A stretch of DNA of 35,704 nt. Origin: Bacteroidota bacterium (GTDB lineage Bacteria; Bacteroidota; Bacteroidia; NS11-12g; UBA955). The stretch is taken from contig JAGXTF010000108.1 in assembly GCA_018333525.1 (NCBI GenBank), positions 1 through 35,704 of the forward strand. The letters are read 5' to 3'. The notes under the pieces are model-generated. The model was not told the origin of the DNA. It made no database searches and worked only from the letters and a program-made list of their open reading frames with translations. Both the position numbers and the translations under genes were made by a program. Of this stretch, positions 1-33,898 are shown piece after piece; the first letter of the stretch is position 1; each line of letters opens with the position of its first letter.

Positions 1-2
1 CT

Positions 3-296
3 TTAACCTGGATACAGGAAAAATATGCATACGGGTTAACGTACCTAAAAAAAGATAAAGAAATGGTCAAATTTAAATTCGTATCCTACCCAAAACGAGA
101 GTTGACATTAAAAAGAATAGGCAAATCAGGGTTTCGCATATTATGTCAAATTAATGGTTCTATTGCAGAATTAAAGAAGATATATGTAAAAATTACCGGA
201 GGAACTTTTTGGGTTCCAAAAGTAGAATATGTAGAGATTTCAGGATTCACCTATTCGGGTAAATCTCCAGTTTCAGAAAAGATTATACCCAATTGA
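3..296 (+). CDS. C-terminal fragment of an unidentified protein, cut by the window edge
   Basis: The reading frame that ends at the TGA at 294-296 is open back to the first codon in the window (position 3), so the visible 97 codons are probably the tail of a longer protein and not a 77-residue protein starting at the ATG at 63. The sequence is basic and beta-rich (an FKFVSYPKRELTLKRIGKSGF-like stretch in the middle, then GGTFWVPKVEYVEISGF). I see no signal peptide, membrane segment or known motif and do not recognise the family. An alternative reading is that a second frame (2-58, ending in a TAA) is the tail of the upstream gene and the ATG at 63 starts a small protein. The stop codon lies 8 bases before the ATG of the next gene. 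Confidence 0.5.
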   Translation, partial: LTWIQEKYAYGLTYLKKDKEMVKFKFVSYPKRELTLKRIGKSGFRILCQINGSIAELKKIYVKITGGTFWVPKVEYVEISGFTYSGKSPVSEKIIPN

Positions 297-304
297 AAAC
301 TGAA

Positions 305-1006
305 ATGGAATTCGAATCCTTTCATAATTTTCCGCGTCGAAATAATTTTATTCCAAGTGAAATTTATGGGGAATATCTGCCGTCCATGGAAAGCATCCAT
401 TCGGACCCCATTTCCATAGGAATCGCTGTAGCTTGGCCGGAAACACTCTGCAAGCAAGCCGGTTCATGGTACGATTTTATATTGAAAAGAATTGGAATAA
501 ATGAAAATAACTATTACAAAGTAGGCCATGCGGCAATCATCCTTGTTGATCCACTGAACAGAGAGTGCCGGTATTTTGATTTTGGAAGATACCATGCCCC
601 TGCAGGGTTCGGAAGGGTGAGAAACGCAGATACGGACACGGATCTTAAAATCAATACCAGAGCAGAAATGGATGATAAATCAGGGTATGTACGAAATTTA
701 AAAGAAATACTCCTGGAACTTGAAAACAATCCATCCTGCCATGGAAATGGCAAACCTATAGGAGCACAAACAACTATCCGATTTCAAACAGCCTACATGC
801 GAGCACTGAAAATGCAGGAAACCGGATTTATTCCATATGGCCCTTTTACAATCAGGGGTACAAACTGCTCCCGATTTGTTCGTTCCATACTGATTTCAGG
901 AATGTTGCCGGGTTTTTCAAAATTAAAACTTCGATTTCCCTGGACCTTTAGTCCGTTGCCTGTGCACAATGTAAATTGTCTTAAACATGAAATAAGTAGA
1001 ATCTAA
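305..1006 (+). CDS. DUF6695-like protein, N-terminal part
   Basis: This cytoplasmic-looking protein of about 233 residues resembles the DUF6695 family of Bacteroidota proteins, recalled from its pattern: an AWPET-type opening, KVGHAAIILVD, a YFDFGRYHAPAGFGRVRN segment, an expected-length middle, then YGPFTIRGTNCSRFVRSIL with a conserved Cys-Ser-Arg-Phe. The HAA, Asn-Cys and Arg-Phe residues give it a papain/NlpC-like feel, but no enzyme activity is established. The ATG at 305 is preferred; a TTG at 293 overlaps the previous stop and would add four residues. The stop codon TAA at 1004-1006 overlaps the ATG of the next ORF (TAATG). In relatives I recall, the sequence found in that next ORF is part of the same polypeptide, so this gene may be the front half of a split gene. 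Confidence 0.5.
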   Translation: MEFESFHNFPRRNNFIPSEIYGEYLPSMESIHSDPISIGIAVAWPETLCKQAGSWYDFILKRIGINENNYYKVGHAAIILVDPLNRECRYFDFGRYHAPAGFGRVRNADTDTDLKINTRAEMDDKSGYVRNLKEILLELENNPSCHGNGKPIGAQTTIRFQTAYMRALKMQETGFIPYGPFTIRGTNCSRFVRSILISGMLPGFSKLKLRFPWTFSPLPVHNVNCLKHEISRI

Positions 1007-1942: not shown

Positions 1943-1970
1943 GTAAGGATTTACAAACTCCTGCGACTTC
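1943..1970 (+). promoter_or_regulatory. Candidate ECF sigma promoter, copy 1 (thioredoxin-sigma operon)
   Basis: GTAAGGA (1943-1949) and CGACTTC (1964-1970) are separated by 14 bases. The identical pair with identical spacing occurs at 3399-3426 and 4590-4617. It lies 80 bases upstream of the thioredoxin-like gene, which is translationally coupled to the sigma gene, so it would provide autoregulation. Spacing and a CGAC-type -10 are usual for ECF promoters. Confidence 0.7.
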
Positions 1971-2049
1971 TATAAGTACAACAAATTCAGAACGAAGATT
2001 ATCCCCTATTTAACATATGGATACATAATCGACCCAACTTGTTAGCAAT

Positions 2050-2529
2050 ATGAATCAAAAAAAATTCAATAAGTATGTAAATTTCAGAATAATCGCCCTT
2101 ATTCCAATCCTGGCAGTAATTATTTACTCCCTGAATATTTTCGCAAGCGGAGGCAATTCAAACGTTAATTCTGCGCAAGGCATTCAATTCAGGTATATAA
2201 GTATGGACGAAGCTATCGAAATAGCAAAATTGGAAAATAAAGTGATATTTGTAGACGCTTATGCTGACTGGTGCGGACCATGCAGACGACTTGCCAGAAC
2301 AACATTTCTCGATTCAGGTGTAGCTTCCCTTTTTAACCATAACTTTATCAATGTAAAAATGAATATAGACCAACCATTGGGTAAAATATTTTCTCATTCC
2401 TATCGCATTCAATCGTTACCAACTCTTCTTTTTTTAGATACATCCGGAAACGAATTGCAACGGACGGTGGGAACAATTGATCCGGAAAATCTGATAACTT
2501 TGGCGTCGCCACTAAAAAGTAACAAGTGA
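2050..2529 (+). CDS. Membrane-anchored thioredoxin-like protein
   Basis: The 159-residue protein has a hydrophobic segment at about 14-32 acting as a signal anchor or uncleaved signal, then a thioredoxin fold facing the periplasm. The active site is WCGPC at 74-78 and the cis-proline is in SLPT (P124). The DEAIEIAKLENKVIFVDAYADWCGPC layout is that of the DsbD-gamma/Thioredoxin_7 group, which reduces or shuttles electrons to periplasmic thiols. It is the first gene after the copy 1 ECF promoter and its stop overlaps the ATG of the sigma gene (TGATG). This places a thiol-redox protein in the same transcript as the sigma factor and its putative zinc-finger partner, which suggests a redox-linked stress response. 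Confidence 0.85.
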   Translation: MNQKKFNKYVNFRIIALIPILAVIIYSLNIFASGGNSNVNSAQGIQFRYISMDEAIEIAKLENKVIFVDAYADWCGPCRRLARTTFLDSGVASLFNHNFINVKMNIDQPLGKIFSHSYRIQSLPTLLFLDTSGNELQRTVGTIDPENLITLASPLKSNK

Positions 2530-3113
2530 TGTTGAACGCCGAAAATATTGACCAAAGCATTGAAAACAAACAAATTACCGAATGGGTAAAAACGCATACA
2601 AAACCATTACTGGCTTATACCATGACTAAAGTATCCCATAGGGAAACTGCAGAGGATATTGTTCAACTTGTTTTTGAAAATGCGCTAATGGCTTCTCGAA
2701 AACAAAAGGACATTGGCTCCGTAAAAGGATGGTTGTTCTCTATATTAAAAAATAAAATTGCAGATCACTTTCGGGAACAATACAGACATCCCAGTCACCA
2801 TAGCCTGGAGGAATTAAATGAGTCTGGTGATTTTTTTGATGAAAACGGAAACTGGAAATCGGAAACCAGACCCGGCCAAACAGAAACGGGACATTTACTT
2901 GATGATCCTGAATTTACCAATATCCTTCGAAGATGTATTCATGCCTTGCCCCCGCGAATGAATGCTGTTGTACAGTTGAAATACATGGATGACAGGGAAA
3001 GTGCATTGATTATTGAAGAATTAGGCCTATCCGCAAATAATTTCTGGCAACTCATACATCGCGCAAAATTGCAATTAAGACAGTGCATGGAAAAACATTG
3101 GTTTAAAAACTAA
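2529..3113 (+). CDS. ECF-type RNA polymerase sigma factor
   Basis: The product (194 residues from the ATG at 2529; a GTG one codon upstream is also in frame) has both ECF sigma regions. Region 2 spans about residues 15-85 with AEDIVQLVFENAL and GWLFSILKNKIADHFR, which bind core polymerase and melt the -10. Region 4 spans about 133-190 with LPPRMNAVVQLKYMDDRES, an EELGLSANNFWQLIHRAK helix-turn-helix that reads the -35, and a terminal LRQCMEKHWF. Between them is a longer acidic linker (about 95-128). It is coupled to the thioredoxin gene upstream and followed four bases later by a small zinc-finger protein. Three matching promoter-like motifs flank it, so it probably drives its own operon and the two downstream units. 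Confidence 0.9.
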   Translation: MLNAENIDQSIENKQITEWVKTHTKPLLAYTMTKVSHRETAEDIVQLVFENALMASRKQKDIGSVKGWLFSILKNKIADHFREQYRHPSHHSLEELNESGDFFDENGNWKSETRPGQTETGHLLDDPEFTNILRRCIHALPPRMNAVVQLKYMDDRESALIIEELGLSANNFWQLIHRAKLQLRQCMEKHWFKN

Positions 3114-3117
3114 TTAT

Positions 3118-3402
3118 ATGGGGAAAATTAAAAACAAACTAATGTTGTCCTGCAAAGAAGCTGCAGGGTTGATTGAAAAAAAACAACATTTCAGATTAAC
3201 TCTAAAGGAAAAGCTGGACCTGACCTTGCATAAAATGGCATGTAGCGCTTGTCGCATGTATGAAAAGCAGAATAATGCACTTAACAAGAAATTGAAAGAG
3301 GTAAATGAAGTGGATTATAATCCTTCAACCACCGGAGACACCCAGGAGTTGGAACAACGGATTTTGACCAAACTTTACGGCAAAACAGATTCAAAATTGT
3401 AA
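3118..3402 (+). CDS. Small zinc-finger anti-sigma factor candidate
   Basis: The 94-residue protein contains C12 in a LSCKEAAGLIEKKQ opening and an H38-x3-C42-x2-C45 motif (LHKMACSACRMYEKQ). This is the arrangement of the zinc-binding anti-sigma (ZAS/zf-HC2) domain that grips ECF sigma factors. It has no transmembrane segment, so it would act in the cytoplasm; the rest is a short charged tail. It starts four bases after the sigma gene, the classic position of the cognate anti-sigma. Soluble ZAS proteins are often released by disulfide formation with zinc loss, which fits the thioredoxin gene in the operon. The GTAAGGA element of the next promoter overlaps its stop codon. Confidence 0.7.
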   Translation: MGKIKNKLMLSCKEAAGLIEKKQHFRLTLKEKLDLTLHKMACSACRMYEKQNNALNKKLKEVNEVDYNPSTTGDTQELEQRILTKLYGKTDSKL

Positions 3403-3426
3403 GGAACTGCAAAAAGTTTCGACTTC
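3399..3426 (+). promoter_or_regulatory. Candidate ECF sigma promoter, copy 2 (membrane protein-DinB unit)
   Basis: GTAAGGA (3399-3405) and CGACTTC (3420-3426) with a 14-base spacer match copies 1 and 3. The -35-like half overlaps the stop codon of the anti-sigma candidate and the -10-like half ends 16 bases before the next ATG, giving a very short leader. Confidence 0.68.
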
Positions 3427-3442
3427 ATTGTAAAATCAAACA

Positions 3443-3883
3443 ATGAAGATCAATCTATTAAATTCTGTAATTATTGGGGTGGTATCCACCATAGGAATGT
3501 CTATCCTGATGCTCGTTTTGTCGAATCTGGGATTTCCTGAAATGAACCCTCCAAAAATGATGGCCCACATTATGCATCAAAGTCTGTTTGTCGGCTGGAT
3601 CATTCATTTAATGATAGGGATAACATTCTCCATTATGTTTCATATTTTATACAATTGGAAACTCCACACAAAATCCTGGTATTTGAATGGTGTAATATTC
3701 GGTATTTTGGCCTGGATACTGGCGCAAATAGGATTCGGTGTAATTGGTGCAGTTGCAGGAATGCCACCTGCCCGAAATGGATCCATGGAATTAATGATTG
3801 CCGGAAGTATTTTAACCCATTTATTCTTTGGATTTTGTGTAGCAATAGGATTTAACCTTTTAGTTCAAAAGAAATTAAAATGA
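3443..3883 (+). CDS. Four-helix integral membrane protein of unknown function
   Basis: The 146-residue protein is almost wholly hydrophobic, with four likely membrane helices (about 8-28, 45-69, 77-100 and 112-141). Helix 1 carries GVVSTIGMSILMLVLS and loop 1 carries FPEMNPPKMMAH. The G-x-x-[ST]-x-[GA]-M pattern in the first helix recalls the DUF6789/DUF1440-like small membrane families, but I am not certain of the assignment. Methionine and histidine are common in the first loop (MMAHIMHQ). It sits directly behind the copy 2 ECF promoter and is followed three bases later by the DinB-like gene, so both would be regulon members. No function can be assigned. Confidence 0.7.
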   Translation: MKINLLNSVIIGVVSTIGMSILMLVLSNLGFPEMNPPKMMAHIMHQSLFVGWIIHLMIGITFSIMFHILYNWKLHTKSWYLNGVIFGILAWILAQIGFGVIGAVAGMPPARNGSMELMIAGSILTHLFFGFCVAIGFNLLVQKKLK

Positions 3884-3886
3884 AAC

Positions 3887-4450
3887 ATGGATAATGAATG
3901 GAGCGAAAGTATGAATCTGAAAACAAAAAATCCACTTTATGTTCGGGTAGAAAATTTGCTATTACAACTCAAAGGCCTTCTCCTCAACGTTTCGAACAAC
4001 CAATATATTCAACCCATAGGAATCATGGATAATGCTACAATAGGGCAACATACCAGACACATTCTGGAATTATTCCAGGTTCTGATTAATGGTCACTACT
4101 GCGGTGCTGTGAATTACGATGAAAGACCAAGAGATTTAGAGTTGGAATCCAATCCGCATGTTGCACTGTCATTTATAGATGAAATACTGGCAAATATTAC
4201 TAAAAATGATAAGACCATTATCATGATACATACTGTACTCATTGGTATGGATACAACCTCTTTTGATACTTTATCGAGTTATCGCCGGGAATTGGCATAT
4301 AATATTGAGCACACCATACACCATTTGGCGTTAATAAAAGTTGCAATCAGAATTATTTCTCCGGAACACGAATTTGATACAGACTTTGGCTACGCAGATT
4401 CTACCCTGATCAATAAAAAAGCCATTCATACAACCCCTGCAATCTCCTGA
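3887..4450 (+). CDS. DinB-fold family protein (putative metal-dependent thiol enzyme fold)
   Basis: The 187-residue protein has the DinB/YfiT four-helix-bundle signature: TIGQHTRHILELFQ near 51-64, which supplies a first histidine (H55, with H58 nearby), and YNIEHTIHHLALIKV at about 138-152, which supplies the paired histidines (H142, H145/H146). Members bind a divalent metal and many use bacillithiol, mycothiol or glutathione as cofactor; others have no known reaction. The start is uncertain: the ATG at 3887 is three bases after the preceding stop, while an ATG at 3911 has a GGAG eight bases upstream and would give MNLKTKN. It is in the copy 2 ECF promoter unit. Confidence 0.75.
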   Translation: MDNEWSESMNLKTKNPLYVRVENLLLQLKGLLLNVSNNQYIQPIGIMDNATIGQHTRHILELFQVLINGHYCGAVNYDERPRDLELESNPHVALSFIDEILANITKNDKTIIMIHTVLIGMDTTSFDTLSSYRRELAYNIEHTIHHLALIKVAIRIISPEHEFDTDFGYADSTLINKKAIHTTPAIS

Positions 4451-4466
4451 TATTGTTCACTTTTTC

Positions 4467-4510
4467 GAATGAAGTCAACAAATTTTAAATCCGTTAGCGT
4501 TGCTTCATTC
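4467..4510 (+). terminator. Stem-loop after the DinB gene
   Basis: GAATGAAG-T-CAAC (4467-4479) pairs with GTTG-CTTCATTC (4499-4510): a 12-base-pair stem with one bulged T and a 19-base loop. It begins 17 bases after the DinB-like stop codon and lies upstream of the copy 3 promoter. There is no clear T-run behind it, so it may be a weak terminator or a 3'-end stabiliser. Confidence 0.4.
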
Positions 4511-4589
4511 ATGTATTTTATGGATTACCAAATATCACCAATGCATTCTCTGATCCGACGATATTAAAATGTCATATTTTACTTTTTTC

Positions 4590-4617
4590 GTAAGGATTAA
4601 GAATATCCTGCGACTTC
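4590..4617 (+). promoter_or_regulatory. Candidate ECF sigma promoter, copy 3 (P460-like cytochrome)
   Basis: GTAAGGA (4590-4596) and CGACTTC (4611-4617) are again 14 bases apart. Copies 1 and 3 also share TCCTG immediately before the -10-like half. The ATG of the cytochrome gene is 24 bases downstream. Confidence 0.7.
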
Positions 4618-4641: not shown

Positions 4642-5163
4642 ATGAAAAAGACACATTTAACACTTATTGTCATTGCATTGGTAATGGCAACTTTTGCCTT
4701 CGATTCATGCAAAAAATCAGATTCCAAGACAACCCCTTCTGAAGAATTCGTTGCAAATGACAGTACTTTCAAGGACTTTATGACCTGGACTCTGGTAAAA
4801 ACCAATCAAGGACCGGATCCGGCTTTAGGGGGGATTGCACACAGCGGTAATGACAGTTCTGTAAAGCGGGAGGTATACATTAAGAACAATCAAAAGGCGA
4901 ACAATGGCGTATACCCGGTTGGCACTTTGGTAGTAAAACACTCGTATAACCCCACAGCAACTGTTAATGAGTACACTGCCATGGTTAAGCGCGGTAATGG
5001 ATTCAATCCTGCCGGTGGAGACTGGGAGTATTTTGTGCTTATGATGGACGGAACCATAGCAACAGATAATGGAATGAAAATGCGCGGTGCGGACCTGATG
5101 TCCGGAATGTGCAGAGGTTGTCATTCTGCTGCCACTACAGACCATCTGTTTTCCCAAAAGTAA
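4642..5163 (+). CDS. Cytochrome P460-like lipoprotein with one heme c site
   Basis: The 173-residue product has a Sec signal ending in a lipobox-like FDSC (C23) followed by KK, so it is probably a periplasm-facing lipoprotein. The mature domain has the P460 layout: VYPVGTLVVKHSY, a YTAMVKRGNGFNPAGGDWEYFVL stretch, then RGADLMSGMCRGCHSAA. CRGCH at 157-161 is a CxxCH heme c attachment motif placed, as in cytochrome P460 and cytochrome c'-beta, near the C-terminus. Family members oxidise hydroxylamine or bind NO; many Bacteroidota homologues are uncharacterised. I cannot identify the heme-crosslinking lysine of true P460 enzymes with confidence. The gene has its own copy of the ECF promoter. Confidence 0.78.
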   Translation: MKKTHLTLIVIALVMATFAFDSCKKSDSKTTPSEEFVANDSTFKDFMTWTLVKTNQGPDPALGGIAHSGNDSSVKREVYIKNNQKANNGVYPVGTLVVKHSYNPTATVNEYTAMVKRGNGFNPAGGDWEYFVLMMDGTIATDNGMKMRGADLMSGMCRGCHSAATTDHLFSQK

Positions 5164-6656: not shown

Positions 6657-7418
6657 ATGGATTTTAATACGGTAAATACGAAAATCATTGACAGCTACAG
6701 AAAGGCAAAAAACAGACTGATATTATTGGACTACGATGGAACATTGGTTCATTTTGATACAGTTCCGGAGCGCGCGGTACCAACCCCTTATATTAAGAAT
6801 TTGCTTCACAATCTGAACCTACAGGCACGAACTCAGGTTGCAATAATCACTGGCAGATCCTATTTGAGCATAGAGCATTTCTTAGGAAATCTGAATTTAG
6901 ATATGATAGCCGACCATGGCGCCATGGTAAAAGAAAACAATCAGTGGAGGCCCAAAATTGAAAACAACCATCATTGGAAGCCTTATATCCTTGAAATATT
7001 GGACAAATGGACGCAGCAATATCCCGGATCATTTGTTGAATCAAAATCGTTCTCCCTGGCATGGCACTTCAGAACTTTGGATGGAGAATTGGATGATTCA
7101 GGTGTTAACCGATTAAAATCTGAATTACACGAAAAGGTATCCGAGTTTGAATTACAAATTATGAATGGCGACAAAGTACTGGAGATTATGCCTACAAACC
7201 TTGGTAAAGCAAAGGCAGCTCAATATGTAATGCATCGTGATTCATTCGATTATATTTTGTCCATTGGTGACGACGCAAGTGACGAAGAAATTTTTGAATT
7301 ACTTTCCGAACTTGAAATATCGCATACGGTAAAAGTTGGAAGTGGCAAATCGGCGGCCAAATACCATATTCAGGAAATTGAGAATGTACACCGACTTTTA
7401 GAAGAAATATCAAAATGA
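6657..7418 (+). CDS. otsB: Trehalose-6-phosphate phosphatase
   Basis: The 253-residue product is a HAD-superfamily phosphatase of the OtsB type, which dephosphorylates trehalose-6-phosphate to trehalose in the cytoplasm. HAD motif I is DYDGTL at 25-30 (nucleophile D25, acid D27); motif II is IITGR at 63-67; the NLGKAKA segment (K184) supplies motif III; motif IV is GDDASDE at 204-210. ADHGAMV near 85-91 and the AWHFR (135-139) and EIMP (176-179) segments are typical of the cap and substrate region. Length matches single-domain bacterial OtsB. Its TGA overlaps the ATG of the synthase gene (ATGA), so the two steps of the OtsAB pathway are translationally coupled. Confidence 0.93.
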   Translation: MDFNTVNTKIIDSYRKAKNRLILLDYDGTLVHFDTVPERAVPTPYIKNLLHNLNLQARTQVAIITGRSYLSIEHFLGNLNLDMIADHGAMVKENNQWRPKIENNHHWKPYILEILDKWTQQYPGSFVESKSFSLAWHFRTLDGELDDSGVNRLKSELHEKVSEFELQIMNGDKVLEIMPTNLGKAKAAQYVMHRDSFDYILSIGDDASDEEIFELLSELEISHTVKVGSGKSAAKYHIQEIENVHRLLEEISK

Positions 7419-9634
7419 AAATTAATCTCGCATTAATCCTATCAATAATTTTGGCCTCTGGCTTGGTTTCATTTGGCTTCACTTATTACCAAATTTCCTC
7501 AGACAGAACAAATTTAAACAATGAATTGGAATTTAAAGTGAAACAGGTTGTTCAGGAAATAATTAAGAGAGATTCCAATTACTTTGACAGCGTTTCTGAA
7601 AATAATATAAATAGATTTGCCAAACAACTGAGTGTAAATTATGGCTTGAAAGGGTTTGCCATTTTTGGAAACGAAAATCGCTATATTGGCAATCCGGAAA
7701 TTGTCAAATACAGGGCGCACTCAGTAGATTATGCTACACAAGCATTAGCTGCAGACACTGCATTTGGATATTTCACAAATATCGATGGCAAAGAAATTTA
7801 TCAATATATTCAACCAATAAACCACCAACATATTGCCAGCAATGTAGCAATATTATATGCGGATGCAGAATACATCGATAATATTATTGGGGATATCTGG
7901 TTTCGGAATTTTCTCCGTTGGTTTTTTCAGGCATTTTTTGTTTCTATAATTACTGTTTTGATAATAAGGTACGGGATATTTGGCCCCATAAATAAAATAG
8001 TGAATTGGGTTAAATCTGCGCGAATGGGGGATGTAGAAGAACTGGAACAAAATCCTCCTGCAAAGTTTCTAGCTCCCCTTCATAAAGAAATAACACAAAT
8101 TGCCAGGGCAATGAATGAAGCAAAAGCCTCGGCTGAGGAAGAAGCAAAACTGAGAAGTAAATCAGAAGCAATTTGGACACCGGAACGCTTAAAAATAGAG
8201 ATGCGGAATTTGATAAAGAACAAAATGTTGGTAGTGGTTTCCAACCGCGAACCCTATATGCACTTTCGATCCGGAAAAGAAATAAAATGTTTGGTACCTG
8301 CCAGCGGCATGATTACCGCCATGGAACCAATCCTAAAGGCATGCGGAGGGTTATGGATAGCAGCTTCGAGCGGAGATGCGGATAAGGAAACCGTAGATGA
8401 AAATAACCGACTGCGTGTACCTCCGGAAGAGCCAAAATATACGCTAAAAAGATTGTGGCTGACCAAAGAAGAAGAAGATCACTATTACTACGGATTTTCT
8501 AATGAAGGAATCTGGCCGCTTTGTCATATTGCCCATACCAGACCCATATTCCGAATTGAAGATTGGGGCTATTACCAGAAAGTAAATGAGGATTTTGCAA
8601 ATGCAGCTCTGGAAGAAACCTTGGATGAGGAAGAACCTCTGATACTGATACAAGATTACCATTTTGCACTGTTACCTGAATTAATTAAAAGAAAAAAACC
8701 CAAGGCCCGCGTTGCGATTTTCTGGCATATTCCATGGCCTAACCCGGAATCATTTGGTATCTGTCCATGGCAAAAAGAAATATTAATCGGATTATTAGGC
8801 GCTGATCTTATTGGATTCCATACCCAATATCACTGCAATCATTTTCTGGAAACCGTAAACAATTCTCTGGAAAGCCGCGTTTTGTGGGAGAATTTTACTG
8901 TAAAAATGGGTGGGCATACTACTCTTATCAAACCATTTCCTATCAGCATAGATTTTACCATGAAGGATTTAAATAATGAGGAGGTAAAACCAGATATAGA
9001 ATTTCTGATGAAGGAACATGGGATAAAGACAAAATTTATTGGTATCGGTGTAGATCGTTTGGATTATACAAAGGGAATAATTGAGAAATTTTTAGCCGTC
9101 GAGTTGTTTCTGGAGCGAAATCCAGATTACCTAAGCAAATTTACTTTTGTTCAAATTGGGGCTCCAAGTCGCATGTCCATCAAAAGTTATGCAGATACCG
9201 CTTTGGCAATTGAAAAGGAAGCAGACCGCATAAATAACAGATTTAAATCCAAGAACTGGAAACCCATTTTATTATTAAAAAAACACCACAGTCATGATGA
9301 AATTCAGCCCTATTACAAAACGGCCCGTTTCTGTATGGTCACTTCCCTACACGATGGAATGAATCTGGTAGCAAAAGAGTTTGTGTCGCAACGAAACAAT
9401 GAAGATGGAGTGCTCATATTAAGTCGATTTGCAGGTGCCTCTCAAAAGATGCAGGGGGCTATAGTCATAAACCCTTATGATACCGACAAGTCGGCGAATG
9501 CAATTCTGCAGGCGCTTGAAATGAAATTAGATGAACAAAATTCACGTATGCAGTCTATGCGCAAAGAAATACTGAGCAATAATATTTATGCCTGGGCAGC
9601 AGACTTATTGCGAACCATGGCATCGATTCGTTAG
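7415..9634 (+). CDS. otsA: Membrane sensor/HAMP-like region fused to trehalose-6-phosphate synthase
   Basis: The 739-residue product joins two modules. Residues 1-260 look like a bacterial sensor: membrane helix at about 5-24, an extracytoplasmic region (25-165), a second helix at about 166-188, then a HAMP-like stretch (IFGPINKIVNWVKSARMGD) and a short coiled-coil linker (230-260). Residues 270-735 are a GT20 synthase that makes trehalose-6-phosphate from a nucleotide-glucose and glucose-6-phosphate. Its motifs are SGMITAMEPILKACGG (297-312), QDYHFALLP (413-421), HIPWP (438-442), GFHTQYH (467-473), GVDRLDYTKG (545-554, with the phosphate-binding Arg and Lys) and SLHDGMNLVAKE (644-655). All key catalytic motifs look intact. 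The topology puts the synthase in the cytoplasm next to the phosphatase made from the overlapping gene. A plain OtsA is about 470 residues, so roughly 265 are extra. Confidence 0.9.
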   Translation: MKINLALILSIILASGLVSFGFTYYQISSDRTNLNNELEFKVKQVVQEIIKRDSNYFDSVSENNINRFAKQLSVNYGLKGFAIFGNENRYIGNPEIVKYRAHSVDYATQALAADTAFGYFTNIDGKEIYQYIQPINHQHIASNVAILYADAEYIDNIIGDIWFRNFLRWFFQAFFVSIITVLIIRYGIFGPINKIVNWVKSARMGDVEELEQNPPAKFLAPLHKEITQIARAMNEAKASAEEEAKLRSKSEAIWTPERLKIEMRNLIKNKMLVVVSNREPYMHFRSGKEIKCLVPASGMITAMEPILKACGGLWIAASSGDADKETVDENNRLRVPPEEPKYTLKRLWLTKEEEDHYYYGFSNEGIWPLCHIAHTRPIFRIEDWGYYQKVNEDFANAALEETLDEEEPLILIQDYHFALLPELIKRKKPKARVAIFWHIPWPNPESFGICPWQKEILIGLLGADLIGFHTQYHCNHFLETVNNSLESRVLWENFTVKMGGHTTLIKPFPISIDFTMKDLNNEEVKPDIEFLMKEHGIKTKFIGIGVDRLDYTKGIIEKFLAVELFLERNPDYLSKFTFVQIGAPSRMSIKSYADTALAIEKEADRINNRFKSKNWKPILLLKKHHSHDEIQPYYKTARFCMVTSLHDGMNLVAKEFVSQRNNEDGVLILSRFAGASQKMQGAIVINPYDTDKSANAILQALEMKLDEQNSRMQSMRKEILSNNIYAWAADLLRTMASIR

Positions 9635-22880: not shown

Positions 22881-23987
22881 TTATTTTGAATGGCTGTGTC
22901 CTTCCATCGGATTGGTTCCTTTATTAAAAACGTACTCACTATTCAGCAGGTATGCACCAGTAACAACAACCACATCACCTGCATTCAAACCGTCCAATAT
23001 TTCTGTGTATCCATTTGATTCAATACCAGTTTGCACCATCCTACTCTTGAATTTATTTTTCCCAAACTGTAACCAAACTGTGGATCCCTTGCCATCTTTG
23101 ATGATCGCATCCGTTGGTAGTGAAAGAATCCATTTCTTTTTCAATAATAGACTTAGATACGCCAGTGAACCAAGTTGTAACTCATTGTTGGGATTCTTAA
23201 TTTCTACGCGAACCAAATTGATTTTGGATGAAGGATTCAGTTCCGGATTTACGAAACCAATATTGCCGTATACTTCTTTACCAGGTAGTGATGGGAAGCT
23301 GATTTTGGCTTCCATAGATGGCCTGATCTCATATATAAAGTCTGAATATACTTGTGCTTCAACCCATACGGTGGAATAATCGGTCAAATGGAGAATATTA
23401 TTTCCTTCCATTACGTAATTTCCCTCTTTTGTATCGATCGAGTAAATAACCCCGGCAACTTTACTCAGAATTTTCACCGTAAAGGGTTCCTTTTTTTCGC
23501 TTTGTATCCGACCAATTTGTTCATTGGTAAGACCATACAAAATGAGTTTGGTTTTTGCGGTTTGAAGAATCTTTTCATAATCGACATCAGGGTTTTTCAG
23601 GGATTTCTTCTTTTCTGTAGCAAGCAGAAGCTCCCTGACTGTCATATTCAAATCCTCGCTATAAATCTCATACAAGGGATCTCCAACAGAAATCAAGTCC
23701 CCGGTAGTTTTAAAATAGAGCCTTTCTATTCTACCCATAACTCTTGAACTAATGCTAACCATCTTGTTTTGATTGGCATTTACTTTTCCCATTAATAAAA
23801 TGTCCTCGCCGAGTTCATGTTTCTTTAATGAATCTGTAGTTATGTTTCCCAATTGAATTTGTTGATCACTCAAGTGAAGCTCACCTGGCGAGAGGGCAGC
23901 CGGATTCGTAGCGCCAATGTTTTTCTTATTTTCCCCACAAGAAATAATTAAAATCATTAAAATAAAATATAGCGTTTGTTTCCGCAT
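22881..23987 (-). CDS. RND efflux periplasmic adaptor, CusB type, second copy
   Basis: The 368-residue lipoprotein (lipobox ISC, C17) is a membrane-fusion protein. It has LSDQQIQLGNITTDSLK and a barrel-sandwich region (ISSRVMGRIERLYFKTTGDLISVGDPLYEIYSEDL), a helical hairpin (LLLATEKKKSL), then FTVKILSKVAGVIYSIDTKEGNYV and a beta-barrel/membrane-proximal end (TDAIIKDGKGSTVWLQ, GLNAGDVVVVTGAYLLNSE). Unlike its neighbour it lacks the heavy-metal-binding domain. Its ATG directly follows the stop of the first adaptor gene (TAAATG). Adaptors link the inner-membrane pump to the TolC-type channel. Two adaptors might form mixed complexes or serve different metal states. The symbol cusB is not assigned because the pair cannot be told apart. 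Confidence 0.88.
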   Translation of the reverse strand: MRKQTLYFILMILIISCGENKKNIGATNPAALSPGELHLSDQQIQLGNITTDSLKKHELGEDILLMGKVNANQNKMVSISSRVMGRIERLYFKTTGDLISVGDPLYEIYSEDLNMTVRELLLATEKKKSLKNPDVDYEKILQTAKTKLILYGLTNEQIGRIQSEKKEPFTVKILSKVAGVIYSIDTKEGNYVMEGNNILHLTDYSTVWVEAQVYSDFIYEIRPSMEAKISFPSLPGKEVYGNIGFVNPELNPSSKINLVRVEIKNPNNELQLGSLAYLSLLLKKKWILSLPTDAIIKDGKGSTVWLQFGKNKFKSRMVQTGIESNGYTEILDGLNAGDVVVVTGAYLLNSEYVFNKGTNPMEGHSHSK

Positions 23988-25250
23988 TTATTTGCTCTCC
24001 ATTTTTATGAATCCTTCGCTATCCATTAGCATTTGCCCGTTAGTAGCAACAACATCGTTGGATTTAATTCCAGAAATAATTGCAGTCCAATCACCTGATT
24101 TATCTCCCGTTTCTACGCGCCGTGTTCTGAACAATCCGTCCAGCTTCACAAAAACCACAGAGTTCAAGCCCAGATTGACAATTGACGAAGAAGGAACGAA
24201 AAGTCCCATTGTTTTCTTGTCATTAAATCGGGCTTTTACAAGAGTCCCGATTTGAATGTCTTCGCCAGGATTGCTGATATAAACCCTAACCGTGATTATC
24301 TTTTTATTTTCTCTTATTGCAGGCTCAACAAAATCAATGATAGCCTCCATAGGCTGATCCTTGCGCCCATCTATTTCAAGGGTTATTTTCTGGCCTGCTT
24401 TTACTGACCCTTGAGCTTCAGGGAAAACATCTAATAAGGCCAATACCCTTTGCGTGTTATAAATATTAAAAATGGTCTGTCCTTTGGGAAAATACATCCC
24501 TTCTCTTATAGGTAATTCCGATGCAGTTGTAGCTGATGAAGCCATAACTTCATTACCCATTTGTGAATTATCGGTGCCTTGAGCTACGCCATGCAGATGA
24601 CCAGAATAAGGACTATAAATGGTTATGGTGCCGGATATTTCACCACTGGTTTTGAGCTTTTCAACCTGCTCCACCGCAAGACCAAGAAGCATTAACTTTT
24701 GTTCAGAGGCCTGAATCAAGGAAATATTATCCGCATCGTTTTTCCATATAAACAGAAAATTTCGCTGCTCAACCTCAAGGTCTTTACTGTAAATATCCAT
24801 CAACTTTTGTCCCTTGCTAATCACCTGGTATTGTGAACGTACATAGAGCTTTTCAATCCTACCTGAAACTCTGGCAGACACTGTATTTATCAATCTTGGA
24901 TCATATGTGATTCTTCCCAAAGCCATAACACTGGTCGGAATCACCTTTTCAACCGGATGAGTGGTCTTGACCTGACTGATGACATATTGGTTGGTAGGCT
25001 TTAGTAAAATGTCCAGCGATCGGTCTGCGGCCTTTGTTCCATCTTTGAGTTTCTCTACCAGCACCATCCCACAAATCGGGCAGTTACCTGGTGCATATCG
25101 CACTATCTCAGGATGCATAGGACAAGTGTAAATATGACGTTCCTCATGCTCGGCATGATTTTTATGCCCGGTAGCTTCTTTTTTTCCGGTACATCCCAAA
25201 ACCAAACTGCAACACAGGAACATTAATATTTTTAAAATTACACTTTTCAA
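23988..25250 (-). CDS. cusB: RND efflux periplasmic adaptor with heavy-metal-binding domain, CusB type
   Basis: The 420-residue lipoprotein (lipobox LVLGC, C20) has a His-rich spacer (HKNHAEHEERH) and then a heavy-metal-binding domain, YTCPMHPEI at 41-49 and CPICGM at 57-62. An adaptor body follows: TSVMALGRITYDPRLINTVSARVSGRIEKLYVRS, a hairpin, GTITIYSPYSGHLHGV, GMYFPKGQTIFNIYN and the barrel GLFVPSSSIVNLGLNSVVFVKL. In CusB the N-terminal methionine-rich part takes Cu(I)/Ag(I) from a chaperone; here the metal domain would do that. The start is a TTG at 25250, as the only alternative (ATG at residue 10) would cut into the signal peptide. It follows the TolC-like gene by nine bases. Confidence 0.9.
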   Translation of the reverse strand: MKSVILKILMFLCCSLVLGCTGKKEATGHKNHAEHEERHIYTCPMHPEIVRYAPGNCPICGMVLVEKLKDGTKAADRSLDILLKPTNQYVISQVKTTHPVEKVIPTSVMALGRITYDPRLINTVSARVSGRIEKLYVRSQYQVISKGQKLMDIYSKDLEVEQRNFLFIWKNDADNISLIQASEQKLMLLGLAVEQVEKLKTSGEISGTITIYSPYSGHLHGVAQGTDNSQMGNEVMASSATTASELPIREGMYFPKGQTIFNIYNTQRVLALLDVFPEAQGSVKAGQKITLEIDGRKDQPMEAIIDFVEPAIRENKKIITVRVYISNPGEDIQIGTLVKARFNDKKTMGLFVPSSSIVNLGLNSVVFVKLDGLFRTRRVETGDKSGDWTAIISGIKSNDVVATNGQMLMDSEGFIKMESK

Positions 25251-25259
25251 TGGTCGGTT

Positions 25260-26528
25260 TTACTTTATTTCAAGTTGTTTTTCATATTGCACTTGTAACT
25301 GTAGCAAATCGTTTAAAAGGTCAAGATAACCCAATTGAGATACCTTGAGGTTTTGCCAGGCATCGAGGACCATAAACAACTCCTCTGTATTCTGTTCATA
25401 GGCCAATAGTAAAGTTTGATAGTTTTTTTGTAATGACGGAATAATCGTTTTTTCATAAAGGCCGATCTGCAGCTTTTTATTTCTGATCTGAAATTTGATA
25501 TTTTCAAGGTTCCCCGTAGTTGCATTGATAAGAGATTCTTGTCTGCTCTTCAATGCTTCAATTTCAAAACCCAACCCGGTTATGGATGATTTGTACATCC
25601 TGGATGACCAGGGTGCAATCGGAACGGTCATCATGGCCATAAGACTGAACAATTGCGGCTGTTTTCCGAAAGTAAACATGTGATCGTACCGTAATCCAAA
25701 ATCAGGTAAGCGTTTGGAATATTCTAAAAGTTGCTTTGATCTTAACAAATTGATATTCGCTGATAAGGCCCTGTATTCACTGCGCTTGCTCGTTATCTCC
25801 GCGGAATCAACCAATAATGAGTCATAGTTTTTCAGTGAAAAAATTGAATCAATATCAAACTCCATATTCTTATCCCTTGCCATTAAAGTATTCAGCTCCA
25901 CCATCAATTGCCTGATTTCTGTTTCGGCCATCAGTTTCATCTGTTGCACTTCGCCGAGCATTGCCTTTGCCTTATAATAAGCGCTGAGCTTATCCATGCC
26001 ATAGGTGTATCTAATTTCAGTGGATTTGATTATGTATTCCAACAGGGCTTCATTTTCTGACAGTATTTTAAGTTTCCTTTTTAGTACCTGCCATTCGTAA
26101 TAGCGCATTTTAGCCATGCCAAACATCTCATTCCTGGTCGCCCCTTGCATCTCCCTTTCAATGTTGACCATGCTTTGCATATAATCTGCATTGGCATCCA
26201 ATTTTTTGGGGTTCGTGAACATTTGTTGCGCTGAGAACATGACCGAACCCATTCCGGTATTCGAACCATCCGCTTTCCACATCATTGGGTTATATGGCGT
26301 CATAAAAAACCCTGTTCCAAACTGAGGTGGTTCCAGCGCTTTAGCTCCTTTCGCGTAGGCAGCATAAGCATTGGCCTGAGCTTCGTACATTTTCAACTCA
26401 GGGTGGTTTTTCTCGATGACATTCAATATACTGTCGAGGTTTATTACCTGGGCTGAACTATTTATTGTGTTGAATAAAAATCCAACAATTAAAATAGCGT
26501 TTACGTAAAATATCTTTTGCCTATTCAT
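25260..26528 (-). CDS. TolC-family outer-membrane efflux channel (CusC-like)
   Basis: The 422-residue product has a signal peptide (about 1-26, ending SSAQ). It then follows the OEP/TolC pattern of two similar halves of long helices: NLDSILNVIEKNHPELKMYEAQANAYAAYAKGAKALEPP at the start, and a second half around 240-420 with RALSANINLLRSKQLLEYSKRLPDFGLRY. Between the helices, segments such as TVPIAPWSSRMYKSS match the barrel turns. It forms the duct through the outer membrane for the RND pump. A Met-rich segment near 70-105 (FFMTPYNPMMW, GMGSVMFSAQQMF) may interact with copper or silver, as in other Bacteroidota copper channels. It lies between the pump genes and the two adaptors. Confidence 0.9.
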   Translation of the reverse strand: MNRQKIFYVNAILIVGFLFNTINSSAQVINLDSILNVIEKNHPELKMYEAQANAYAAYAKGAKALEPPQFGTGFFMTPYNPMMWKADGSNTGMGSVMFSAQQMFTNPKKLDANADYMQSMVNIEREMQGATRNEMFGMAKMRYYEWQVLKRKLKILSENEALLEYIIKSTEIRYTYGMDKLSAYYKAKAMLGEVQQMKLMAETEIRQLMVELNTLMARDKNMEFDIDSIFSLKNYDSLLVDSAEITSKRSEYRALSANINLLRSKQLLEYSKRLPDFGLRYDHMFTFGKQPQLFSLMAMMTVPIAPWSSRMYKSSITGLGFEIEALKSRQESLINATTGNLENIKFQIRNKKLQIGLYEKTIIPSLQKNYQTLLLAYEQNTEELFMVLDAWQNLKVSQLGYLDLLNDLLQLQVQYEKQLEIK

Positions 26529-26546
26529 TGCGCCTATTTGTACATT

Positions 26547-28469
26547 TTAATCTTCAAACTCTTTCACTATTAATTTGCCATGCTTTCGCAATTCATATTC
26601 CCTTACCATGGCGTATAGCACAGGTAAAACTATTAACACAAATAACGTAGATGTAATTAATCCAAAAACGAATGGTATCGTAATGGGTTTCATCACATCA
26701 CTGCCAGTTCCTGTGGCCAGTAAAACCGGTAATAAGCCTAGTATATCTACTAAGACGGTCATTAGTTTTGGTCTCAATCTCAGCGCGGCACCATCATAAA
26801 TAGCATCCTCAATATCCTGCTTTGTCATTGCAGTATTTGCCGCTTTAACTTTATTTACTTTCTTATAAATAGAGTTGTTCATATACACCAGCATTAATAC
26901 ACCTGTCTCTACCGCTACACCGAAAAGTGCAATAAATCCAACTGCCACCGCCACTGAAAAATTAACACCAAAGAAGTGCAGGGAATATGCGCCTCCTACC
27001 AGTGCAACCGGCACCGCTGAAAGTACAATCAGAACTTCGCGAAAAGTGTGAAATGTGAAGTATAGAATTACCATAATAATGACCAGAACAATTGGAATGA
27101 TTAATCTTAACCTCTCATTGGCTCTTACCTGATTTTCATATTGGCCACTCCATGACAGGAAATATCCCCGGGGTAGCTTCTTAATCGCTGCCGACAGTTT
27201 CTTTTTTGCATCGTTTACTGTACTACCCAAATCTCTCTCACGTACATTAAACAACAGCGTTCCTCTAAGCATTGCATTCTCAGAAGTTATCATGGGCGGG
27301 CCTTCTGTAATTGCAATATCCGCAACAGAAGAAAGTGGTATTGGACCATAATCCATGGTTTGAAGCTGCATTCTTTTCAGCTTATCCAATTTGTCCCTAA
27401 AGTCTTGTGCAAAACGAATATTGACAGTAAAGCGCTGCCGGCCTTCAATAGTTGTGGTCGCATTCATGCCACCCAAAGCCGTTTCAATAAACATGTTTAC
27501 ATCATCTACCGATAAACCATACCGCCCTATTTCATCCTTTTTGATCTTTATTTCGATATATTTTCCGCCAACAATTGGATCTACGTACAGATCCTTTACC
27601 CCATCCACTCCTTCAAGTTCTTTTTTGAACATTTGGGCCAGTTGGTTAATGGTATCCAGATTTTGACCATAAACTTTAACCCCAACATCGGTTCTGATTC
27701 CGGTTGAAAGCATGTTAATCCTGTTGATAATAGGTTGAGTCCAGCCGTTAATTACACCCGGAATCTGCATTTTGGAATTCAGCTCAGTGATAATATCATT
27801 TTTAGACAGTCCTTTTCTCCATTCAGATTGGGGTTTTAATAAAATAATGGTCTCGATCATACTAATTGGCGCATTATCGGTTGCTGTGCTTGCCCGACCT
27901 GCTTTTCCGAGAACATTGCTAACCTCAGGCACAGTCATAATTATTTTATCCTGAACCTGCATGATTCTTTTTATTTCAGAATTGGAAACATCAGGTAATG
28001 TAACTGGCATGAAGAGCAAAGAGCCTTCATCAAGAGGTGGCATAAACTCGGTACCAAGGTTCAGTACTACGGGGACACTTCCCAGCACCAATGCCATACT
28101 CAAAGCAAGTGTTGTTTTCTTCCACTTTAAGCACCAACGGATGATAGGATTATACATCCATAGAAAAAATCTGGAAACAGGATGTTTGCTCTCCGGTCGG
28201 ACATTGCCTTTTAGTAATAACGTCATGAGAACAGGAACCAGAAAAATGGCCACGAATGCAGAACCTATCATGGCAAAGGTTTTTGTCCAAACCAGCGGCG
28301 AGAAAAGTTTATGCTCTTGCCCGGTGAGAAACAGAATTGGGCTAAATGAAACCAGCGTTATCAAAATAGAATTGAATACCGCTTTACCTATTAGCTTGGA
28401 CGAGGCTTCTATTCGTTTTTCTCTTTCTTTGTTAGACAACATTTCCTTTTTCTTTTTTATTGAAAACAT
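26547..28469 (-). CDS. cusA: CusA-type RND pump, C-terminal part (helices 5-12)
   Basis: The 640-residue ORF holds the rest of a heavy-metal RND pump: ILITLVSFSPILFLTGQE (helix 5), the second periplasmic domain with MLSTGIRTDVGVKVYG (the Met is where I expect a metal-relay methionine of CusA), and helices 8-12. GVAVETGVLMLVYMNNS carries the proton-relay Glu of helix 10, and LRPKLMTVLVDILGLLPVLLATGTGSDVMKPI supplies the Lys of helix 11. Added to the 420-residue front ORF it makes about 1,060 residues, normal for CusA. The ATG at 28469 overlaps the stop of the front ORF by one base, and the first 20 residues (MFSIKKKKEMLSNKERE) replace the usual cytoplasmic loop. No essential region seems lost. 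Confidence 0.85.
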   Translation of the reverse strand: MFSIKKKKEMLSNKEREKRIEASSKLIGKAVFNSILITLVSFSPILFLTGQEHKLFSPLVWTKTFAMIGSAFVAIFLVPVLMTLLLKGNVRPESKHPVSRFFLWMYNPIIRWCLKWKKTTLALSMALVLGSVPVVLNLGTEFMPPLDEGSLLFMPVTLPDVSNSEIKRIMQVQDKIIMTVPEVSNVLGKAGRASTATDNAPISMIETIILLKPQSEWRKGLSKNDIITELNSKMQIPGVINGWTQPIINRINMLSTGIRTDVGVKVYGQNLDTINQLAQMFKKELEGVDGVKDLYVDPIVGGKYIEIKIKKDEIGRYGLSVDDVNMFIETALGGMNATTTIEGRQRFTVNIRFAQDFRDKLDKLKRMQLQTMDYGPIPLSSVADIAITEGPPMITSENAMLRGTLLFNVRERDLGSTVNDAKKKLSAAIKKLPRGYFLSWSGQYENQVRANERLRLIIPIVLVIIMVILYFTFHTFREVLIVLSAVPVALVGGAYSLHFFGVNFSVAVAVGFIALFGVAVETGVLMLVYMNNSIYKKVNKVKAANTAMTKQDIEDAIYDGAALRLRPKLMTVLVDILGLLPVLLATGTGSDVMKPITIPFVFGLITSTLFVLIVLPVLYAMVREYELRKHGKLIVKEFED

Positions 28470-29731
28470 TAACTATCCTCCCCGCTTATAGACTTCATTG
28501 AATTTTCTACCATTACAATACCTGCATCCACCAGGTCACCAACCGCCAACGCCACTCCTGCAAGTGACATAATATTGGAAGTAATTCCGAACCACCCCAT
28601 CATAATAAATGATATAAGAACCGCCATGGGAATGGTAATAATTACGACCAGAGCACTTCTTACATGTAACAGAAATAGGAACAAGACAATGGCAACAACT
28701 ATTATTTCTTCCACTACTGCATTTTTAAGTGTAGATATGGTGGCATCAATCAGGTCAGATCTATCGTAAGCCACCTTAAATTTAACACCTTGCGGTAATC
28801 CCTTTTCAAGGTCTGTTAATTTCTCTTTGATGCGTTCAATCACGTCCTTGGCATTTTCGCCATAGCGCATCACCACAATCCCACCAACTTTCTCACCTTC
28901 ACCGTTTTCATCTACGATTCCAAGTCTGAGTTCGCCTCCCATCTGTACAGCGGCCACATCCTTAACTCTCACTGGCACGGAGTTTATTGTTCTAAGTGGG
29001 ATATTTTCTATTTCTTTTATATCCTTAATATAACCCGATCCTTTGATGATATATCCGATATCAGATTGCTCAAATTTTCGTCCTCCAACATCATTATTAT
29101 TGGCTTTTACCTTGTTGGCGACATCCATTAAAAGGATATCATAGTAACGCAGTTTGTATGGGTCTACAACGATTTGATACTGTCGCTGAAATCCACCAAA
29201 GGAAGCAACTTCACTCACCCCCTCCACGGTTTGTAAGCCAAAACGAACATACCAATCCTGCAAAGCCCTCAGCTCACCCAGATCATAACCTGGAGCATCC
29301 AGCGTGTACCAGTAAATATGCCCTAGCCCGGTACCATCCGGTCCCAAGGTTGGTGTAATTCCTTCCGGAAGTAATCGTTGCGCATAGTTCAATCGTTCCA
29401 GCACTCTGGTGCGGGCCCAATAAATATCAGCAGCATCATCGAAAATTACAAAAACGAAACTCATCCCAAACATGCTGTTCGCTCTAATATTCTTCACTTT
29501 GGGAATTCCCTGAAGATTGCTCACCAGCGGGTATGTAATCTGATCCTCAATGATTTGTGGATTGCGACCCATCCATTCTGTGAAGATGATAACCTGGTTT
29601 TCTGAAAGATCAGGTATAGCGTCAACCGGGGTATTTTTTACAGAATAAATTCCGTAACCAGCAACCCCAGCAGCGATGAGGAGAACTATAATCCGGTTTT
29701 TAAGGGCCCATGTTATGAAATTGCCTATCAT
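28469..29731 (-). CDS. cusA: CusA-type RND pump, N-terminal part (helices 1-4)
   Basis: The 420-residue ORF begins like every HME-RND pump (FITWALKNRIIVLLIAAGVAGYGIYSVKNTPVDAIPDLSENQVII). It continues through the first periplasmic domain with RANSMFGMSFVFVIF, YARTRVLERL-like and LGHIYWYTLDAPGYDLGELRALQDWYVRFGLQTVEGVSEVASFGG segments, to helices 2-4 with AVGDLVDAGIVMVENSM. D402 is the proton-relay Asp (CusA D405 by family knowledge). It stops eighteen residues later in the loop before helix 5, at a TAA (28471-28469) overlapping the next ATG. Cu(I)/Ag(I) is the most likely substrate given the adaptor metal domain and the multicopper oxidase nearby. It overlaps the preceding small gene by 4 bases. 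Confidence 0.85.
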   Translation of the reverse strand: MIGNFITWALKNRIIVLLIAAGVAGYGIYSVKNTPVDAIPDLSENQVIIFTEWMGRNPQIIEDQITYPLVSNLQGIPKVKNIRANSMFGMSFVFVIFDDAADIYWARTRVLERLNYAQRLLPEGITPTLGPDGTGLGHIYWYTLDAPGYDLGELRALQDWYVRFGLQTVEGVSEVASFGGFQRQYQIVVDPYKLRYYDILLMDVANKVKANNNDVGGRKFEQSDIGYIIKGSGYIKDIKEIENIPLRTINSVPVRVKDVAAVQMGGELRLGIVDENGEGEKVGGIVVMRYGENAKDVIERIKEKLTDLEKGLPQGVKFKVAYDRSDLIDATISTLKNAVVEEIIVVAIVLFLFLLHVRSALVVIITIPMAVLISFIMMGWFGITSNIMSLAGVALAVGDLVDAGIVMVENSMKSISGEDS

Positions 29732-30024
29732 TGGTTGCTTATTTTTCCCTTTGATAGAATAAATTTATGTGGCATTTGATTTTTATCTAAATGTTCATTT
29801 AAAATACCATCTATTAAAAAAATCAAAGCATTTAAAGCTTGCTTCTTTGTTCTCCCGGAAACAACTTTACAACTGTATCGTTCATACTCTATTTTGCCAT
29901 TGTCCATATTATCCACTGCTTTTATCACGTGGTTTATTTGAAGTCTACCGGTAACAATATTTTGACCAATTGCCGCATGCGTGAGGATTGCGGTGATAAA
30001 CAATATGACAGGCCTTAACCTCAT
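29728..30024 (-). CDS. Small secreted protein of unknown function
   Basis: The ATG at 30024 gives 98 residues with a clean signal peptide (RLRPVILFITAILTHAAIGQ); the longer frame begins with a TTG at 30066 and adds 14 charged residues. The mature part has one Cys (SCKVVSGRTKKQAL) and no recognised domain; the VTGRLQINHVIKAVDNM opening might be beta-structured. Its stop overlaps the start of the pump gene by 4 bases, so it belongs to the copper efflux operon, where it may be a small periplasmic accessory. Homologues in comparable operons would be the test of that. Confidence 0.6.
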   Translation of the reverse strand: MRLRPVILFITAILTHAAIGQNIVTGRLQINHVIKAVDNMDNGKIEYERYSCKVVSGRTKKQALNALIFLIDGILNEHLDKNQMPHKFILSKGKISNQ

Positions 30025-30070
30025 CCAGTCGTAATTAATTTGTATTCTTTTCGCATCATCTTCCAAATGT

Positions 30071-30553: not shown

Positions 30554-30560
30554 TTAAAAT

Positions 30561-30707: not shown

Positions 30708-30794
30708 TGTAAATTTATCTACAACATTTTTTAACAAATACGTATCGAAATGATTTATAAACAGCATGAATTATTTTGTGAAACATGGTCTTGT

Positions 30795-33892: not shown

Positions 33893-33898
33893 ATATCA

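Follow-up and report, generated by a model that had tools for sequence, protein, structure and literature searches.

A predicted sigma factor promoter in two copies of a redox-type module of a Bacteroidota genome, and within the sigma factor genes of its relatives

The window analysed here, a stretch of 35,704 nucleotides from a contig of a Bacteroidota bacterium, opens with the end of a DUF4833 gene (1..296, + strand), followed by a group of genes on the same strand that lie between and behind three copies of one bipartite motif. The first of these genes (2050..2529) encodes a predicted membrane-anchored, probably periplasmic thioredoxin-like protein, which resembles the C-terminal part of DsbD, carries the motif WCGPC (Thioredoxin_7, 3e-11; DsbD-like matches) and has an N-terminal hydrophobic segment as judged from its sequence. 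The next gene (2529..3113) encodes an ECF (group 4 sigma-70) sigma factor of 194 amino acids with regions 2 and 4, both above the cut-off (Sigma70_r2, 37.6 bits; Sigma70_r4_2, 32.1 bits). At 113 bits against a curated cut-off of 162.2, this sigma factor stays below the threshold of TIGR02943, which is among its best named families and is matched by 27 of 27 relatives scanned, and I do not claim its membership. The adjoining gene (3118..3402) encodes a soluble, predicted zinc-binding protein of 94 amino acids with the sequence features of a ZAS anti-sigma factor, namely HxxxCxxC and an N-terminal cysteine (HKMACSAC and LSCKEA; NF052368 exactly at the cut-off, 50.0/50). HxxxCxxC is present in 122 of 130 orthologous anti-sigma loci, where a membrane helix is mostly absent.

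Further downstream, also on the forward strand, are the genes for a DUF6789 membrane protein (3443..3883; 9e-11) and for a DinB-like protein (3887..4450), a name taken over from the earlier note. The latter gave no match in a Pfam search at E 0.1; its orthologues are located near orthologous sigma genes. The last gene of the group (4642..5163, + strand) encodes a putative lipoprotein of the cytochrome P460 / c'-beta superfamily with a CxxCH motif (CRGCH). All 9 orthologues match Pfam P460 (best 2.6e-11), the window protein alone scoring 23 against a cut-off of 27. A low-confidence structure model (pLDDT 68) gave significant matches with VIA-align 2, and the best 17 of these are without exception P460 or c'-beta (Z 7.0-8.5), with the next unrelated row at Z 4.0; Foldseek alone returned nothing significant for this model, and the P460 alignment, used in a sequence search against solved structures, found no match. 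By modelled fold and CxxCH the product fits a putative cytochrome P460 / c'-beta.

As the earlier note had described, the motif GTAAGGA-N14-CGACTTC occurs exactly, with a spacer of 14 in each case, on the forward strand at 1943-1970, 3399-3426 and 4590-4617 (predicted promoters P1, P2 and P3), where 100 dinucleotide-preserving shuffles of the window contain none and none is expected by chance. P1 precedes the operon of thioredoxin-like protein, sigma factor and anti-sigma factor, P2 the DUF6789 and DinB-like genes, and P3 the P460-like gene, with 79, 16 and 24 nt, respectively, to the next ATG, within the range of 16-80 bases given before. The pentamer TCCTG common to the first and third copy was likewise found, and the TAA stop codon of the anti-sigma gene (3400-3402) indeed lies inside the GTAAGGA of P2, an overlap that is identical in the second module copy described below. 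Scored with a weight matrix built from other genomes only, P1 reaches 20.2, P2 19.8 and P3, which has CGTAAGG and not TGTAAGG, 10.3 bits. The reversed control has its maximum at 15.8 bits in 585 kb and at 6.9 bits in the window, so that P3 stays below the maximum of the larger set; a chance site of similar strength (11.0 bits) is present on the minus strand of the window at 17111, within a gene.

No fourth exact copy exists in the window, as had been claimed, but the whole genome contains five (reversed control 0), the other two being located on contig C4, where the whole module is present a second time in diverged form. Two further sites, C4:2427 and C30:36563, deviate only after CGACT. The end of contig C30 equals the start of the window over 211 identical bases, and the site on it (P0; GTAAGGA-N14-CGACTAC, 24.4 bits) thus belongs to the window's own module as a fourth predicted promoter, at which the operon that includes the DUF4833 gene would begin. 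The two modules are about 74% identical overall, with 51 of 56 bases in common in the boxes and 34 of 56 in the spacers. The counterparts of P2 and P3 on C4 share 14 of 14 box bases (7 of 14 spacer bases for P2), whereas that of P1 is degenerate (GTAAGTT-N14-CGACATC, 5.2 bits). As all exact and near-exact sites of the genome fall in these two copies, the idea that the motif is specific to the module survives in amended form; the picture of three units around one sigma gene gives way to a genome with two modules, each of which has four predicted promoters. Allowing one mismatch added nothing beyond the two modules, and a relaxed motif with other spacings gave 10 matches against 14 in the control, indicating that only the 15-nt spacing is informative. 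A genome-wide search for TGTCAGGW yielded few matches and no strong statistic by itself. I also considered an origin of the second module from a co-binned relative, which is not supported, as the one C4 gene tested is present once in the genome.

The site lies at most 220 bp upstream of DUF6789 orthologues in 11 of 16 cases in other genomes (reversed control 0) and upstream of P460 orthologues outside this genome in 4 of 7. At least two sites are found in 10 of 56 sigma-bearing genomes and in 3 of 238 genomes without the sigma gene (p 5.5e-6). Most tests used here treat related sequences as independent, and the tree holds only few independent pairs. Intergenic sites are mostly located 17-50 nt before start codons and in one orientation. 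Of three exact matches within the family outside this genome, the one inspected (L007) lies inside a receptor-like gene and is ascribed to chance. From this comparison of sequences, the three sites are very probably promoters for the sigma factor encoded among them, as the earlier note had proposed together with autoregulation. The genes behind the sites in other genomes include those for MsrA, MsrB, MsrBA, YceI, YHS, DsbD_N, DUF1223 and AhpC-TSA proteins, and in L074-L076 for small proteins rich in Met and Lys. The MsrA/MsrB, YceI, DsbD-like and redoxin targets suggest envelope methionine and thiol repair as the likely output of the regulon.

A predicted promoter in front of the sigma operon, as had been postulated, is seen in the lineage of the window; this layout is the minority among orthologous sigma genes. 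In most relatives the predicted site is located inside the sigma gene, in the codons of the DNA-binding domain (region 4.2) and before the anti-sigma gene: scoring with a 5-bit threshold gives 109 of 132 sigma genes that have it, with 32 of 40 and 78 of 90 in two sets. Its distance to the anti-sigma start is about 80 nt (median 80 nt, IQR 77-86), and lineages such as Chitinophaga, Cyclobacterium and Cytophaga aurantiaca have it, Pedobacter cryoconitis having the upstream site. Internal and upstream sites are mutually exclusive (p 4.6e-9). The sigma gene of the window has no internal site (best score -11.2; C4 copy -6.7), so that the internal site says nothing direct about the window.

A promoter inside a sigma gene has a precedent, the only one found in a literature search, in Corynebacterium glutamicum, where a sigma-dependent promoter in sigH, mapped 62-66 nt from the start of rshA, drives only this ZAS anti-sigma gene (PMC3489674). 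The layout is that proposed here for the relatives of the window, and the SigH regulon includes a thioredoxin system, as in the window; SigH belongs to another sigma group with GGAA / GTT type promoters, and phylum-wide conservation at the codon level, as seen here, does not figure in the part of that report consulted. The similarly tight distance to the anti-sigma start makes it improbable that the internal site is a roadblock, at which holoenzyme would lower sigma expression with no transcription start, even though its position inside the gene would allow this.

The internal motif lies in a conserved helix-turn-helix, and could hence be a mere by-product of the peptide C-K/Q-E-L-x-I-x-x-S/T-N. 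I find this very unlikely, as synonymous choice is extreme wherever a codon contains a base of the motif and, for most of the positions in between, close to background: the Lys codon is AAG in 22 of 22 (expected 5.0) and 25 of 26 cases (expected 7.6), and NCG codons are used in 28 of 35 (expected 2.4) and 59 of 82 (expected 14.2). Sigma factors whose genes lack the site have, in place of K/Q, for the most part S, E, D, A, L or N, implying that the protein does not need K/Q; the five proteobacterial homologues inspected have no full site, that of Halomonas retaining a TGT AAG GAA half. Moreover, the internal spacing equals that of intergenic sites, and the variable -35 base is the same as in nearby promoters in 48 of 53 cases (p 1e-9). 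The internal promoter appears to dictate part of the sigma protein sequence.

This covariation also speaks against binding of the three sites by another regulator, a repressor or activator, an option to which I give little credence. The evidence is from sequence, and boxes and spacing alone do not name the binder; however, half-sites at a fixed 15-nt ECF-type spacing and not as an inverted repeat, their enrichment in sigma-bearing genomes and their orientation and distance to start codons fit promoters of this sigma factor, as does the Neisseria match below. That the sites are non-functional remnants of duplication can practically be dismissed, for though the module is present twice, P1, P2 and P3 have identical boxes with different spacers and flanks, and distant genomes have the same sites before the same genes.

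Among the closest known systems is sigma-E (NMB2144) with MseR (NMB2145) of Neisseria meningitidis, with promoter GTMAGBWTT, 12-13 nt, CGTCTAAH and msrAB as a target (PMC2893595). Promoter boxes and spacing are alike, a soluble ZAS anti-sigma gene likewise lies just downstream (PMC2893595), and msrAB-type targets are shared with relatives of the window sigma factor. Read in the same way, P1 is GTAAGGATT-N12-CGACTTC, in agreement with the sigma-E spacer of 12-13 after the ninth base; the -10 box departs from the CGTC type by an A in place of T and by TTC in place of TAA. The window module differs in its P460, DUF6789 and thioredoxin-like targets, and the gonococcal sigma gene has no internal promoter. 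The window system works like the Neisseria sigma-E regulon, but I do not claim full membership, because at the stringency searched a site is lacking ahead of both msrA genes present in this genome. The ECF16 type (Caulobacter SigF, Brucella BcrS/AbcS; (T/C)GTAAC-N17-CGAA) similarly combines a GTAA-type -35, a CGA-type -10 and methionine-sulfoxide repair targets with induction by hypochlorite (PMC8315932), the latter being presumed here.

As a whole, these observations are best explained, with a high degree of confidence, by a redox-type ECF regulon in a duplicated module, from a family with an internal autoregulatory promoter. The sites, their conservation, gene partners, the internal site and the codon constraint are read from the sequences; from these I infer binding, transcription, inducing signal and feedback role. 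The soluble zinc-binding anti-sigma factor would hold the sigma factor until thiol, chlorine or metal oxidant stress, the presumed signal, frees it; the sigma factor would then start transcription of its own operon, of the DUF6789 unit and of the P460-like cytochrome from the GTAAGGA-N14-CGAC sites ahead of them, and via P0 also drive an OB-fold/YceI/thioredoxin unit. In Bacteroidota and neighbouring lineages the autoregulatory promoter would normally be located in the region 4.2 codons and most likely yield extra anti-sigma factor as negative feedback; the window lineage, lacking the internal site, would use promoters outside the gene instead. I consider it quite probable that Bacteroidota, Ignavibacteria and Chlorobi-type bacteria share one ECF sigma family whose own target promoter is written into the codons for the very domain by which it is read. 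A shift in promoter specificity from GTAAGG to GTCAGG would rewrite the sigma factor's own residue from AAG Lys to CAG Gln, tying promoter and protein together, and window-type lineages would have escaped via a promoter outside the gene.

For a widespread, apparently unstudied sigma/anti-sigma pair of the Bacteroidota, this provides a promoter motif and a list of targets, with the oxidation of methionine and thiols in the envelope as the likely signal. The internal promoter would be a clear example from nature of dual coding, since a regulatory need of the DNA apparently fixes some of the amino acids in a domain that binds DNA, and lineages without it, including that of the window, are ready-made controls. 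The coupling of promoter and protein predicts, in a testable manner, which changes of sigma specificity are open to evolution and which are not.

The motif GTAAGGA-N14-CGACTTC occurs three times in the window in exact form, at 1943-1970 (P1), 3399-3426 (P2) and 4590-4617 (P3) as the earlier note had claimed, all on the + strand, and not once in shuffled sequence. The ORF distances, the TCCTG shared by copies 1 and 3 and the overlap with the anti-sigma stop codon had also been read correctly. The supposed restriction of the motif to these copies does not hold genome-wide: five exact copies are present in the whole genome (reversed control, none), the remaining two on another contig, C4, within a second copy of the window gene order. 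A scan with TGTAAGGW-N14-CGWCT gives 6 sites (control 0), and both sites that it adds precede an OB-fold / YceI / thioredoxin / DUF4833 operon. As the end of contig C30 and the start of the window have 211 identical bases in common, the C30 copy of this promoter belongs to the window's module.

The order on C4 is TseH-like, small protein, T9SS-type protein, Trx-like, sigma, anti-sigma, DUF6789, DinB-like and P460, with a TANGO2-like gene further on. DNA identity between the module copies is 73-74%, the sigma proteins are 87% identical, and agreement is 51/56 bases in the promoter boxes and 34/56 in the spacers. C4 could stem from a co-binned relative, in which case one of its genes is expected to be doubled; this one gene is single-copy, which makes a real duplication probable. 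A trehalose-phosphatase / trehalose-phosphate synthase pair stands beside both copies (window 6657-9634; L218:10131-13170), so the duplication extends beyond the module.

Orthologues of the sigma gene (2529..3113) are found in 57 of the 295 genomes of the class at a cut-off of E 1e-25, and their loci carry the same motif, which follows the anti-sigma gene or precedes either DUF6789 or the sigma gene, with a GTAAGG-to-CGWC distance of 15 nt throughout. A weight matrix from 34 such sites, none from the window's genome, scores P1, P2 and P3 at 20.2, 19.8 and 10.3 bits. Outside this genome, a site lies at most 220 bp upstream of 4/7 P460 and 11/16 DUF6789 orthologues (reversed control none), which supports the regulon that the earlier note proposed, and sites are enriched where the sigma gene is present: 47 in 56 sigma-bearing genomes vs 31 in 238 without it, with at least two sites in 10/56 vs 3/238. 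The proposal is right in substance; conservation of the sequence is what has been established, and binding, transcription, the signal and the feedback are inferences. Target proteins in other genomes are MsrA, MsrB, an MsrBA fusion, YceI, YHS, DsbD_N, DUF1223, Rieske, DM13 and AhpC-TSA. Since neither msrA gene of the window's genome has a site at the search stringency used, its regulon appears confined to the two modules.

In the relatives, the motif is mostly embedded in the sigma gene itself, in 109/132 scored genes (L040-L079, L110-L217), about 100 bp before the gene end, where its codons spell C-K/Q-E-L-x-I-x-[PSTA]-[ST]-N of region 4.2. In 40 genes the choice among synonymous codons is extreme at the motif bases, with AAG for Lys in 22/22 (expected 5.0) and NCG in 28/35 (expected 2.4, p 8e-27); in most of the columns that separate the boxes it stays close to background. 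The pattern recurs in an independent sample, 90 additional non-redundant genes of which many come from named genomes: Lys AAG 25/26 (expected 7.6), Gln CAG 52/53 (24.1) and NCG 59/82 (14.2, p 2e-29), with NCG outside the motif at 400 vs 427 expected. With a matrix built without any internal site, the site scores as a promoter in 32/40 and 78/90 genes; its spacing equals that of intergenic sites, and the -10 end lies a median 80 nt before the anti-sigma start (IQR 77-86, n=104). The -35 base, A with Lys and C with Gln, is that of other sites of the same locus in 48/53 cases (p 1e-9), or 38/43 loci, the reversed control having only two sites. In sigma genes lacking the site, the K/Q position is S, E, Q, D, A, L, N or K, so neither Lys nor Gln is a requirement of the protein at this position. 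Among five proteobacterial homologues, the gonococcal sigma-E gene included, none has the full internal site.

Upstream and internal sites are mutually exclusive: 107 of 131 sigma genes have only the internal site, 11 only the upstream one, 1 both and 12 neither (p 4.6e-9, related sequences being counted apart). When the motif columns are left out of the tree-building, 13 changes of the internal site and 6 of the upstream site fall on the resulting tree, where well-supported independent pairs are too scarce for formal testing. The window sigma gene has no internal site (best internal score -11.2), nor has its C4 copy. The upstream promoter of the window is therefore the minority layout and, because the internal site is so widespread, presumably the derived one. 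In L110, L116 and L117, near relatives of the window sigma gene, no recognisable ZAS anti-sigma gene lies directly downstream; in L110 the sigma gene is followed by a DUF6789 gene that carries a GTCAGG site of its own.

The anti-sigma factor (3118..3402) has about 90 aa, no membrane segment and the HxxxCxxC present in 122/130 loci. The P460-like protein contains CxxCH, and its model, a modest one, matches 17 P460 or c'-beta structures first (Z 7.0-8.5; next other match Z 4.0). Studied members of these families have NO binding or hydroxylamine oxidation as their function. Genes for CusA/CzcA-type RND metal efflux, a multicopper oxidase and a T9SS redoxin lie near both modules (window 22881-34687; L006 and L218), and a MerA-like gene with an HMA domain adjoins the C4 copy (L006:12273-13925, - strand). 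The family likeness of the P460-like protein and the nearby metal-efflux and multicopper-oxidase genes suggest envelope oxidative, chlorine, metal or nitrosative stress as the inducing signal. Met/Lys-rich small proteins encoded right after the promoter in L074 (7846-8124), L075 (8056-8322) and L076 (7868-8095), with sigma on the + strand, resemble the methionine-rich hypochlorite sinks of ECF16 regulons. A TseH-matching gene (Pfam TseH, 152 bits) lies at window 293-1003, and sigma loci L059, L062, L066 and L068 have such a gene next to TANGO2 and DinB-like ones; Acinetobacter portensis has a YiiX/NlpC-P60 hydrolase near its sigma gene. The TseH-like product probably acts as a hydrolase in the envelope and not as a secreted effector.

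The Neisseria sigma-E system has a ZAS anti-sigma factor, an msrAB target and a promoter with the same boxes and spacing (PMC2893595), and the window probably works in a similar way. In Burkholderia glumae and A. portensis, the proteobacterial sigma homologues have genes for thioredoxin and CcdA as neighbours. In Corynebacterium glutamicum, a SigH-dependent promoter within sigH drives the anti-sigma gene rshA only (PMC3489674), a precedent for the common internal layout of the relatives and not for that of the window. No published case of a codon-constrained promoter inside a sigma gene, conserved at such breadth, turned up in the literature covered, which took in few subscription papers. The sigma family of the window shows a variant form of autoregulation that appears to be new.
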